A stretch of DNA of 64,000 nucleotides from positions 1 to 64,000 of the forward strand of contig MKUE01000115.1 of the NCBI GenBank assembly GCA_001897675.1. The letters run 5' to 3'. The translations under genes and the position numbers were made by a program. The notes below the pieces were generated by a model. That model saw only the letters and a program-made list of their open reading frames with translations. It ran no database searches and had not been told where the DNA came from. Of the stretch, positions 53,959 through 57,239 are shown piece by piece. This DNA is from Thiobacillus sp. 65-1059. Its GTDB lineage: Bacteria; Pseudomonadota; Gammaproteobacteria; Burkholderiales; Thiobacillaceae. How positions within the stretch are numbered: the stretch's first letter is position 1; each line of letters opens with the position of its first letter.

Positions 53959-54049
53959 GTGCCGATGCAGCAGGCTGCGCGGCTATAATCCGCTGCTCTG
54001 GCGCAGGCTTCCGCTTCGCCACGCCGCCGCGCCGCCGAAGGACACCCCC

Positions 54050-54073
54050 ATGCTGCTGATGATCGATAACTAT
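54050..54073 (+). other. Left attachment-site copy (attL), first 24 bp of trpG
   Basis: ATGCTGCTGATGATCGAT followed by AACTAT duplicates the first 24 nt of trpG (56670-56693) with two synonymous C/T differences. The native leader with GAAGGACACCCCC lies directly before it. After the copy the sequence diverges into the element and the frame closes 30 codons later. It is read as the left junction of a site-specific integration. Confidence 0.75.
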
Positions 54074-54184
54074 CATCGGCATCCAGTGAAGTCCAAGATT
54101 GTCCGATACCCAAGCCAAAAGCCAGAAGCGGCGCGGGTTTGAAGGCCAGCAACAACCATCATTGTCCATTGCCATCCGGTTAAA

Positions 54185-54225
54185 TTGCGGGTATCGTTGC
54201 GGGTATCGAAAGCCTGATACCCGCA
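54185..54225. repeat. GCGGGTATC repeats, left end of element
   Basis: Two direct copies of TTGCGGGTATC (54185-54195 and 54197-54207) and an inverted copy GATACCCGCA (54216-54225). The second and third form a 10-bp stem with an 8-nt loop, 3 nt before the integrase ATG. They could be recombinase arm sites or an operator. Confidence 0.7.
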
Positions 54226-54228
54226 GCC

Positions 54229-54672
54229 ATGCCCCTAACCGACGCCAAGATTCGCAACGCGAAGCCCGCAGACAAGCCGCAGAAGCTGGCGGACGGCGGC
54301 GGGCTGTACCTTGAAGTTCGACCGACCGGCGCGAAGTTGTGGCGCTACCGCTACCGCATCGCGGGCAAAGAAAACGTCTTTGCCGTCGGCGAGTACCCGA
54401 CCATCGGCCTATCGGACGCACGCGACGAACACCGCAAGGCGCGGGCATTGGTCGAACAAGGCATTCACCCTTCCCACAATCGACAGGCCGAACGGCTGGC
54501 GAACGTCACGGCCAACGCAAACACCTTCGAAGCCGTCGCGCGGGAGTGGATAGCGAAGAAGTCGGCAGGATGGACGCCGTACTATCTGCGGCAGGTTGAA
54601 CGCTTCATGGCCGCCGACGTTTGCCAACATGCTTTCGATTCTGTCGCGCATCCTGTCGGACAGCGAACTTGA
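54229..54672 (+). pseudogene. Truncated phage-type integrase (N-terminal part)
   Basis: A 147-residue frame. The first 130 residues match the DUF4102/Arm-DNA-binding N-terminus of P4-type tyrosine integrases (MPLTDAKIRNAKPADKPQKL, DGGGLYLEVRPTGAKLWRYRY, YPTIGLSDARDE) and the start of the core-binding domain (FEAVAREWIAKKSAGWTPYYLRQVERFMAADV). The catalytic domain with its Arg, His and Tyr is missing. After about 54620 the sequence belongs to another gene, so a deletion fused the two. Function is presumably lost. Confidence 0.85.
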
Positions 54673-54715
54673 ATCGCGCATTGAAGCTTTGGAGCAACGC
54701 GGGGGCTTGCACTGA
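54629..54715 (+). pseudogene. Short gene fragment or tiny ORF after the integrase deletion
   Basis: A 28-codon frame, MLSILSRILSDSELE..., ending GGLH. It overlaps the integrase remnant in another frame and shares TGATG with the next gene. The helical charged sequence looks like the C-terminus of a longer protein cut by the same deletion that truncated the integrase. Confidence 0.4.
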
Positions 54716-55161
54716 TGGCACGCATCGGACTTAAAGCCCGGCTGTCGAAACTGGAAAAGCAACGTCGCAAGGCGTCGCCGAACCGGGTTCTTCACTACAA
54801 CCCCGCCGACCTTGCAGGCGGCCCCCTAAGCGCCGACTTGCCCGTTCGTGTTGTCGGGTACTGGCGGAAGGGTGAAAACCCCGCCAGCGGGCCGCTAGGT
54901 GCCTTCGCGGGCCGGTTCGCCCTTATGCCCGACTTCGGTTCGGCTGCGGAATGGGAAGCGGCGGCGGAACGGCAGCAAAAGGAACTGTTGGCAACGGCCC
55001 GCAGCCGCACCAACGAACCGGCGACCGAAGCGCCCGATATTGTGGACACCATCGCCGAAGACGTGCCCGCACCCATGCGCAAAGGCGAAAAGGGCGCGCG
55101 TTTCGTTGAACTGGCAGACGGTCGCACCTTCGACCGCACAACCGGCGAATTCGTCGAATAA
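54715..55161 (+). CDS. Element-encoded protein of unknown function (148 aa)
   Basis: A 148-residue protein that I do not recognise. It begins with a basic helix (IGLKARLSKLEKQRRKA), then a globular section with SADLPVRVVGYWRKGENPASG and an Ala/Glu-rich helix, and ends with a short strand-like tail (FVELADGRTFDRTTGEFVE). No signal peptide or membrane segment. Its start overlaps the preceding stop. The arrangement resembles small conserved genes in phage-type modules, but no function is assigned. Confidence 0.65.
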   Translation: MARIGLKARLSKLEKQRRKASPNRVLHYNPADLAGGPLSADLPVRVVGYWRKGENPASGPLGAFAGRFALMPDFGSAAEWEAAAERQQKELLATARSRTNEPATEAPDIVDTIAEDVPAPMRKGEKGARFVELADGRTFDRTTGEFVE

Positions 55162-55230
55162 GGGGGCTGATGACGCGAACCGTTCAGGCGTCGGCGCATT
55201 CCGCGTCGCAACCTTCGAAGGAATTTCACC

Positions 55231-55950
55231 ATGAACCAAACGACCAACGCCGTAGCCCCGGCATTTACGAACAGCCTTGTACAGACGCCGCAAGCAAGCG
55301 GCTTTCTTGAACTGGCTGCAACCGAAACGGGCCGAAAAGCCTTCCTTGGCGACCCCGAAAAGTTCGACAGTGACGTAGGGCCGGACATTCTGAACGCGCA
55401 AATCGCGCTGCGGGATGGCGTCGAAACCATCGCCCGACTGTTGAAGGACGAAACCCGCAACGAAGTTCAGCGGCACGAAGTCGCGGGCGTTGTTGCCGCG
55501 CGCACCGTGGAAGCCTTGGAAAAGTCGAAAGCGGCCATCGAACGCCGGGCCGAACTGCTGTACAGCGACGGCGTAGCGCAGGCCGAACGGGAGTTTTCGC
55601 CCCGTGCCAGCCATGCCGCGCTTGAAAGCGAAATTCGCACGTACATTCGGGAGCTTGCGAACAAGGCCGACGGCCCTTCGAAGATTCGTGCGGCCATGCT
55701 CGAAAGCAAGGACGTTGCCGCCGTTATCTACCATTCGCCCGGCTTCCTTGTGGGCATCAACCCCGAAACGCATTCGAAGCTTCGTTTTGAAGCGACCGAA
55801 CGTTGGGTTCCCGACGCTTACAAGCGCATGACCGGCAGCATTGCGCTTTCTGAACTTGCGCCGAAGTTCGCCAAGGCTGCGAACAGCGTTCGAAACAGCT
55901 TCTACAACCCCACACTTGCCGCGAAGGTTTCGACGCGCGTTCAGTTCTAA
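55231..55950 (+). CDS. Element-encoded protein of unknown function (239 aa)
   Basis: A 239-residue soluble protein that I do not recognise. The middle third (about residues 75-150) is strongly helical and charged and could be a coiled coil (ARTVEALEKSKAAIERRAELLY). The C-terminal part has GFLVGINPETHSKLRFEATERWVPD. AAGGAA lies before the ATG. It follows the 148-aa gene by 69 nt on the same strand and is followed by a terminator. A structural or scaffolding phage-like role is only a guess. Confidence 0.65.
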   Translation: MNQTTNAVAPAFTNSLVQTPQASGFLELAATETGRKAFLGDPEKFDSDVGPDILNAQIALRDGVETIARLLKDETRNEVQRHEVAGVVAARTVEALEKSKAAIERRAELLYSDGVAQAEREFSPRASHAALESEIRTYIRELANKADGPSKIRAAMLESKDVAAVIYHSPGFLVGINPETHSKLRFEATERWVPDAYKRMTGSIALSELAPKFAKAANSVRNSFYNPTLAAKVSTRVQF

Positions 55951-55977
55951 CCGAACCCCAGTGCCATGGGACTTTTG

Positions 55978-56004
55978 CCCGGCCTTCGTGCCGGGTTTTT
56001 TTTT
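55978..56004 (+). terminator. Terminator after the 239-aa element gene
   Basis: Stem CCCGGC / GCCGGG with loop CTTCGT and nine T following, 28 nt after the stop. It closes the plus-strand unit of the element, and the convergent lipoprotein gene ends 3 nt beyond it. Confidence 0.85.
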
Positions 56005-56006
56005 CG

Positions 56007-56441
56007 TTAGCCGTTCTGGCAGTTGATCGGGCGACCGCGATAGATGATGTTCATTCCGGTCGTTACGTTCTGCGTTCTGACAATCTGCCCGTTTTGGTAG
56101 AAGAACCAAAATTGTTGGTTGCCGGTGTATCCGCCGTAAGAGTTCTTGGCGTTCACCAGAACGCACGACGAATAGCCGTAGATTGCGCGCTTGTTCGCTA
56201 TGGCGTGTTCTTTGCGCGGCGTGCTGAATTCGGCGTACCTCGCCGATTCGGGGTCTTTCAGCGTCTTCGTCATGTACGCCTTGATTAGCTCTTGGTAGTT
56301 GTCGGGATAGCTACCATAGTCGGCGTTTGGTTCGGGTAGCGTTGCCTTGTATACGTCAAAGGCTTCGTCGGCTTTCTGCGCTTGGGTGGCGCAACCGGCA
56401 AGAAGCGCCGTTGCGACCGCTAGAACTGCAATTCCTTTCAT
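56007..56441 (-). CDS. Element-encoded lipoprotein of unknown function
   Basis: A 144-residue lipoprotein with signal [18 protein letters not shown] and a clear lipobox (LLAGC). After an acidic, helical region ([27 protein letters not shown]) a C-terminal beta-rich part contains two cysteines ([17 protein letters not shown] and PINCQNG), possibly disulfide-bonded. AAAGGGGAAA precedes the ATG. It reads opposite to the other element genes. It may be a surface or exclusion-type cargo protein, but no family is recognised. Confidence 0.75.
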
Positions 56442-56594
56442 GGTTTCCCCTTTCTTGTTGTGCGTCCGATGCGGCTTCATGCCAGCGGTGCCAGCTTCGC
56501 CCCTCATTGACAGTTTATGCGAAAGCCGATACGTGCGAAAATGCCGCGTTTGGTGTCGGCAGTTCCAGACCATCGCACAGGGTATCGAACGAAA

Positions 56595-56617
56595 TTGCGG
56601 GTATCCAAGCGGGTATC
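56595..56617. repeat. GCGGGTATC repeats, right end of element
   Basis: TTGCGGGTATC at 56595-56605 and GCGGGTATC at 56609-56617, with GGGTATC at 56579-56585 nearby. These match the left-end repeats at 54185-54225 and lie 52-75 nt inside the right trpG copy. Matching motifs inside both ends fit recombinase arm sites. Confidence 0.65.
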
Positions 56618-56669
56618 AAGCCCGGAAAGCTGGAACTAAAGCCTTGCAAATCAATAGGATACCTTCTTT

Positions 56670-56693
56670 ATGCTGCTGATGATCGACAACTAC
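56670..56693 (+). other. Right attachment-site copy (attR), 5' end of trpG
   Basis: The first 24 nt of the intact trpG gene, duplicated at 54050-54073. The upstream sequence AATAGGATACCTTCTTT belongs to the element, so trpG now uses an element-derived ribosome-binding region. Confidence 0.75.
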
Positions 56694-57239
56694 GACAGTT
56701 TCACCTACAACCTGGTGCAGTATTTCGGCGAGCTGGGCGAGGACGTCAGGGTGGTGCGCAACGACGAAATCGACCTCGCCGGCATCGCCGACATGCGCCC
56801 CGACCACATCGTCGTCTCGCCCGGGCCCTGCACGCCCAACGAGGCGGGCGTGTCGGTGCCGCTGATCAAGAAATTCGCCGGCGCGATTCCCATCCTCGGC
56901 GTCTGCCTCGGCCACCAGAGCATCGGCCAGGCCTTCGGCGGCAGGATCGTGCGGGCGAAGGAACTGATGCACGGCAAGACATCGATGGTCCATCACCTGG
57001 ATGCCGGCGTATTCAGCGGCCTGCCGAATCCCTTCCGCGCCACCCGCTACCACTCGCTGGTGATCGAGCGCGAAACCCTGCCGGACTGCCTCGACATCAC
57101 CGCGTGGACCGACGACGGCGAAATCATGGGGGTGCGCCACAAGACGCTGGCAGTCGAGGGGGTGCAGTTCCATCCCGAATCCATCCTCACCGAACACGGC
57201 CACGCCATGCTGGCGAATTTCCTGAAAGGTACCCGATGA
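56670..57239 (+). CDS. trpG: Anthranilate synthase component II (glutamine amidotransferase)
   Basis: A 189-residue class I amidotransferase that supplies ammonia to TrpE and may also serve folate synthesis. The oxyanion and catalytic motifs are [25 protein letters not shown] (nucleophile Cys) and [12 protein letters not shown] (His and Glu). The frame is intact despite the insertion at its first codons. It overlaps trpD by 4 nt. Confidence 0.95.

Follow-up and report, generated by a model that had tools for sequence, protein, structure and literature searches.

A probable remnant of a P4-type integrative element at the first codons of trpG in Thiobacillus sp. 65-1059

We analysed a stretch of 64,000 nucleotides (nt) from the genome of Thiobacillus sp. 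65-1059 (contig MKUE01000115.1, positions 1 to 64,000; hereafter the window), in which the start of trpG is present twice, at 54050-54073 and 56670-56693, on either side of a 2.6-kb insert that carries a truncated integrase gene. An earlier note on this DNA, made from the letters alone, had described the two copies as a duplicated attachment (att) site of 24 nt. Both copies lie where that note had placed them, but the run identical between them is ATGCTGCTGATGATCGA, of 17 nt. A scan of the window allowing up to three mismatches returned two matches (mean of 0.00 in 100 shuffles), and both copies are the sole exact matches of the degenerate 24-mer in the 2.9-Mb genome. The left repeat, the putative attL (54050..54066, forward strand), holds trpG codons 1 to 6 on the host side and includes the core ATGATCGA at 54059-54066, with similarity continuing up to 54073. 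The right repeat, the putative attR (56670..56686, forward strand; core at 56679-56686), is the present start of trpG, which is intact as the note had said (189 amino acids; 56670..57239, forward strand). The seven bases that follow the 17-nt run are similar, with two differences (TAACTAT and CAACTAC), which the note had considered synonymous. They are best read as element sequence (attP) and not as synonymous drift of trpG, because the left copy of a related element, found in a metagenome-assembled genome (MAG) labelled Acidithiobacillus (locus L109), continues with TAACTATCATCGG, as the left copy of the window does.

The native leader runs uninterrupted into trpG in 22 of the 56 genomes of the genus, a set that includes the window's own genome. 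This empty site was sought with a 450-nt query, in which the left flank was joined to trpG, and was counted where one collinear match crossed the junction; a single genome (G074) had no match to the query, and the remaining ones matched it in part or in separate pieces. The comparison, which the earlier note had proposed, bears out its claim that the left copy keeps the native leader, and the empty site rules out that the insert is vertically inherited gene content. In four other loci (L032, L088, L092 and L098), trpE is followed immediately by trpG. Five of the 56 genomes (that of the window, G061, G010, G031 and G026) have the core pattern twice on a single contig, with copy-to-copy lengths of 2,620, 5,492, 8,051, 9,945 and 7,085 nt, and G019, G027 and G004 have two core matches each, on separate contigs. 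The window element therefore has the direct repeats and the empty site in relatives by which islands at gene 5′ ends are recognised. Integration associated with a tRNA gene is ruled out, as the window has no tRNA.

The insert has exchanged the leader and ribosome site of trpG while keeping the frame, as the earlier note had recognised: the right copy stands behind element sequence, and the residues MLLMID are retained. The element-derived leader (56650..56669, forward strand) has AGGA at 56656-56659, and the element supplies the ribosome-binding site, the start codon and the first codons of the gene. The native leader (53984..54049, forward strand) has GAAGGA at 54037-54042 and TATAAT, noticed by eye, at 53984-53989, now 2.6 kb upstream of trpG; behind it stands a chimeric open reading frame (ORF) of 30 codons (54050..54142, forward strand), which reads MLLMIDNY and then element sequence. 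The product of trpG is the sole close TrpG/PabA-type protein detected in the genome, the next match being 32% identical and lying within an open frame of 446 amino acids. There are seven GATase matches in the genome; the six besides trpG lie in longer open frames and are taken, from size alone, to be other amidotransferases.

Arm-type repeats are found at both ends of the insert. Those on the left (54105..54222) comprise GATACCC at 54105 and 54216 and the pair GCGGGTATC-N3-GCGGGTATC at 54187-54207, and those on the right (56580..56617, forward strand) comprise GGGTATC at 56580, 56599 and 56611, i.e., at -90, -71 and -59 from the ATG of trpG. With at most one mismatch allowed, the genome has exactly two occurrences of the paired arm motif, one at the left and one at the right end of the insert. 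Many right ends of relatives have GGGTATC at or near the same three positions: 18 right ends, several of them from close relatives, gave 39 matches against 2.8 expected from mononucleotide shuffles. Ten of these ends come from att pairs (26 motifs) and eight were chosen by eye because the leader looked element-like (13 motifs); the right ends of G030 and G072 lack the motif. Of the 18 ends, 16 have a Shine-Dalgarno-like match that is 4 nt or longer, the exceptions being G026 and L108 (a count without shuffle control). The core ATGATCGA is found in both copies of ten attL/attR pairs, one of which (L126) consists of two left ends of a tandem, save for one substitution in the attR of L108; in G010 and L115, ATGCTGCT, a run of equal length, is equally common to both copies. 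The codons ahead of the core are unlike between the left and the right copy in six of the ten pairs, as expected if the left copy comes from the host and the right one from the element.

The integrase ORF (54229..54672, forward strand) starts 156 nt past the end of the left copy, and its product matches the Pfam domain Arm-DNA-bind_3 at residues 3-88 (1.8e-28). The note was thus right about the position and the P4-like N-terminus, but it had not seen that the element is a remnant from which most of the integrase has been deleted. Homology to full-length relatives stops at about residue 131; the first 35 of the 96 positions of the central domain are matched, just at the cut-off, and no Pfam match to the catalytic tyrosine recombinase domain was obtained in the window integrase. 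That domain (PF00589) is found in the integrase of L082, a locus of the genus genome G061, with 4.4e-23. Judged by these matches, the window integrase is a fragment of a P4-type family member and not a working one. The deletion junction lies at 54620..54621, where 3,653 bp are absent compared with L109 and 3,387 bp compared with L082, which gives the same junction. In L082, the absent segment codes for the rest of the integrase and for an AAA ATPase with helicase- or primase-like matches. A search of the window genome with integrase P0001 returned, at E up to 1e-30, the truncated gene alone. By comparison with these relatives, the window element is a deletion derivative, which should not move by its own enzyme, as most of the integrase is gone.

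The element of L109 is 6,272 nt long and lies within its own diverged trpG, with the core at the same trpG codons as in the window. Two matches span the whole window element, with 531 of 554 and 1957 of 2049 positions identical on either side of 54620/54621, and the elements are 95-96% identical, whereas the host trpG genes agree in 430 of 578 aligned columns. A near-identical element in hosts whose trpG has diverged points to a horizontal move into the same codons, if the MAG of L109 is well binned. Hosts whose labels name different classes carry nearly the same element at this site.

Further elements with integrases were found at the trpG start, as the earlier note had suggested they might be. 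We scanned genome contigs with alignment A1, made of seven integrases, one of them the window fragment, that have a trpG-start core. The resulting 79 loci are those among the matches listed, of which the best 80 were kept, and were drawn with one peptide pattern; the integrases of three of them (L125, L140 and L155) were already in the query alignment. In 45 of the 79, a core with up to two mismatches was seen 170-440 nt upstream of the integrase. Six loci were added by hand: L138 and L139, where the core lies 3.2 kb upstream of the integrase and right behind trpE; L150, L154 and L159, where a variant trpG start stands at the usual distance; and L152. The trpG-start core is thus found upstream of the integrase in 51 of the 79 related loci among the matches listed (31 of the 34 at an identity of at least 60% and 20 of the 45 below it). 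Of the 51 core loci, 40 have the end of trpE upstream, at a distance of 0.2 to 9.3 kb. These 51 loci belong to 20 named families, with 14 loci lacking a family name; the taxon labels are those of the records themselves, and L140 is labelled Gammaproteobacteria, yet its contig is that of G031, which counts among the genomes of the window's genus. The integrases of L127 and L142 lie in other genomic places, with a TGATCGA-like sequence. Among the 37 loci considered on viral contigs, the core is present, at 178-179 nt, in all three with an integrase identity of 83% or more. Across the order, 399 genomes were sampled, and 227 of them, counting that of the window, have the degenerate 17-nt site itself.

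On a quick tree of the integrases (82 rows, in which L152 is still labelled as non-trpG), the trpG label changes 10 times, compared with a mean of 23.5 when labels are shuffled, and none of 500 shuffles was as low; at least six of the changes are forced by starred branches, while L183 and L185, on very long branches, are doubtfully placed. Integrases that target trpG are, as far as this tree goes, clustered but not one clade.

We read the locus as an integrative element with a P4-type integrase that recombined at the start of trpG and was later reduced by deletion to the 2.6-kb remnant, with a probability of about 0.93. The tyrosine integrase would have recombined attP with the first codons of trpG, strand exchange falling within ATGATCGA, where we infer the exact crossover. 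Since attP would bring a ribosome-binding site, a start codon and the MLLMID codons, the N-terminus of TrpG would be rebuilt unchanged behind an element-borne leader, and the native leader would remain beyond the element's other end. Some 3.4 to 3.7 kb would later have been lost from within, including the integrase core and, judged by the relatives, the gene of a replication-type ATPase, and the remnant would since have stayed in place.

Several observations weigh against this reading. The integrase is truncated here, and a past excision is something that we infer. A promoter scan found no sigma-70-like promoter in the right end of the element, from which trpG would now be transcribed, and the native TATAAT likewise went unflagged. 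The 79 loci were drawn with trpG-associated integrases, so that 51 of 79 is no frequency; and while trpG is seen at the far end in six of the 51 core loci, in the other 45 it lies beyond the available DNA or was not found. The 10 label changes on the tree imply repeated gain or loss of the specificity. The remaining 34 viral contigs, which are less similar, have no core with at most one mismatch in their available DNA (the upstream stretch was inspected in 16 of them, and many others begin at the integrase, where a core could be cut off). A trpG site was also rejected for the four phage records compared, of 469 with a match, where no core lies upstream of the integrase within up to 600 nt (233 nt in one record). 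Finally, the assembly, on which the deletion junction rests, is a draft in 143 contigs, its contamination estimated at 4%.

The draft state of the assembly and the relatives with complete elements would fit a real genome with a complete element, in which the deletion is an assembly artefact. Both sides of the junction align with L109 right up to it, however, and the joined L109 ends share no base run there that could have misled an assembler, so that we hold such an artefact to be quite improbable. It is also unlikely that the truncated integrase and the genes for two element proteins (p148 and p239) and a lipoprotein-like protein form a complete small element that was moved in trans and is no remnant. 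In its favour, the ORFs that remain are open, with 94-97% identity in L109, and both att sites and the arm repeats have been kept; but the truncated gene is the genome's only match to P0001, at the E value given above, and L109 and L082 have the missing segment, in which the remainder of the integrase and an ATPase-like protein are encoded. We rejected, as hardly credible, the idea that the trpG start and unrelated genes were duplicated locally with no site-specific recombination. Duplication can by itself generate a short direct repeat, but it would not account for the empty site that 22 of the 56 genomes of the genus have, the arm repeats at both ends of the insert or the complete integrase-bearing elements at the same codons in distant hosts, and the comparison with L109 contradicts it.

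The integrase of Enterobacteria phage P4 has the same domain family as P0001 and is about 42% identical to it; this phage integrase targets a tRNA gene. Among systems described at gene 5′ ends, the dusA-associated integrases are, by analogy, the closest parallel to the trpG elements: one integrase family carries diverse islands into the 5′ end of dusA and provides a replacement 5′ end (PMC4482086, in part). As here, the 5′ end of a housekeeping gene is targeted, a short repeat is formed and the island supplies the new 5′ end. The target in the window is trpG, which places its element outside the family defined by dusA, and the two integrase families are likened by description, not by sequence. 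Excision of dusA islands was shown by PCR, whereas the trpG element is known here from sequence; the main text of PMC4482086 does not mention trpG. The integrative and conjugative elements (ICEs) SXT/R391 likewise use a tyrosine recombinase and near-identical attP and attB sites at the 5′ end of a conserved gene, prfC; these ICEs are conjugative, and the trpG elements are likened to them by att site alone (PMC2791158, in part). SpyCI is a phage-like island at the 5′ end of mutL in Streptococcus, with growth-dependent excision reported; in one strain its integrase is a pseudogene, within which a promoter is reported to drive the target gene (PMC3430984 and PMC4689407, both in part). These cases in prfC, mutL and dusA show that 5′-end sites are less uncommon than the earlier note had supposed. 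Nor are protein-coding sites rare as a class: in TIGER/Islander, coding sequences hold 43.4% of islands and tRNA or tmRNA genes 33.8%, without a separation of 5′ from 3′ ends (PMC12424338).

Other mobile or phage-derived DNA has been reported near trpG. The R-type pyocin cluster of Pseudomonas aeruginosa lies between trpE and trpG and is likewise phage-derived DNA at the trpE-trpG boundary, a likeness of location, not of sequence (PMC7344871, in part). The span of a predicted P. aeruginosa prophage includes trpG (PMC12456005, in part), and regions of Xanthomonas arboricola are bordered by it (PMC4686621, in part). The portion of the literature covered by our search holds no description of the trpG start as an attachment site, and the TIGER table may already list it.

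A wider reading, which we consider tentative and rather doubtful, is that P4-type integrases of varied kinds, not forming one clade, are widespread users of the trpG start in several classes of proteobacteria and perhaps outside them (there are MAGs labelled Geobacter and Bdellovibrio), and that integration controls the output of trpG. If so, this output would depend on the presence or excision of an element, with effects on tryptophan and, where trpG encodes the sole amidotransferase, on folate. Apart from this wider reading, the first codons of trpG are sufficiently conserved to be a landing site with a wide host range that needs no tRNA gene. The trpG start serves as a defined attB for locating island boundaries, and the locus is a natural case of a metabolic gene whose leader is repeatedly swapped by mobile elements.

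The rest of the insert holds few genes. The deletion fused the integrase to the 3′ end of a small element gene (54621..54715, forward strand, frame by eye; 103 amino acids in L108). Next come p148, of 148 amino acids (54715..55161, forward strand), which is 94% identical in L109 and matches a phage small-terminase family weakly and in part (8.8e-6), and p239, of 239 amino acids (55231..55950, forward strand), which is 97%, 58% and 55% identical in L109, L082 and L108. For p239, searches gave no Pfam match, weak PHROG matches only, no confirmed relative on viral contigs and no phage match; its AlphaFold model has a mean pLDDT (predicted local distance difference test) of 61, and Foldseek, at E up to 0.001, matched nothing in either the viral or the PDB library. 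A terminator-like hairpin followed by a T run lies at 55977..55996 (forward strand; the scan gave 3 such sites, compared with 5.3 in shuffles). The gene of the lipoprotein-like protein, so named by eye (144 amino acids; 56007..56441, reverse strand), matches PHROG 2320 and is 95% identical in L109. With eight element proteins as queries, PADLOC found nothing and NCBIfam matched the two integrases alone. Apart from the weak terminase-like match, none of the genes of a complete prophage (head, tail, lysis) was matched in the 2.6-kb insert. Compared with phage satellites (P4 or PICI-like), which pair an integrase with a replication gene and have few or no virion genes, the elements give a mixed picture: L082, L034 and L045 have an integrase with an AAA ATPase or primase-type protein, but L033 has a long ORF that looks tail-like by eye, and the window element, judged by relatives, has lost the replication gene. 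Relatives of p239 (its end only in L237) also occur near other integrases, in L235, L236 and L237, which are 25%, 25% and 46% identical to P0001; p239 may be a marker of an element family that changes integrases.

At the trpG start of L149, L151, L152, L153 and L100 lies an island that is almost identical from the integrase on (96-99.6% over 4.2 to 11.2 kb, compared with L151). The hosts are Zoogloea, Achromobacter, Brachymonas, Pseudomonas putida and a Thiobacillus genome, and the sequence likeness suggests recent spread between distant hosts. In L126 (9823 and 17262), two related elements lie in tandem at the trpG start. In Chitinibacter sp. GC72 (G380; L084 and L085), the core copies lie on one contig at a distance of 42 kb, and between them are a P4-type integrase and phage-like genes, identified by eye from part of the span. 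In G053 (L083), two core copies 6.2 kb apart surround metH- and metF-like genes (by eye), and a match to the G010 integrase was sought in this stretch and not found. L036, L091 and L101 (G024, G073 and G061) have hemerythrin-like and NnrS-like genes (by eye) between an SQR-like gene and trpG, perhaps an older insertion at the same place.

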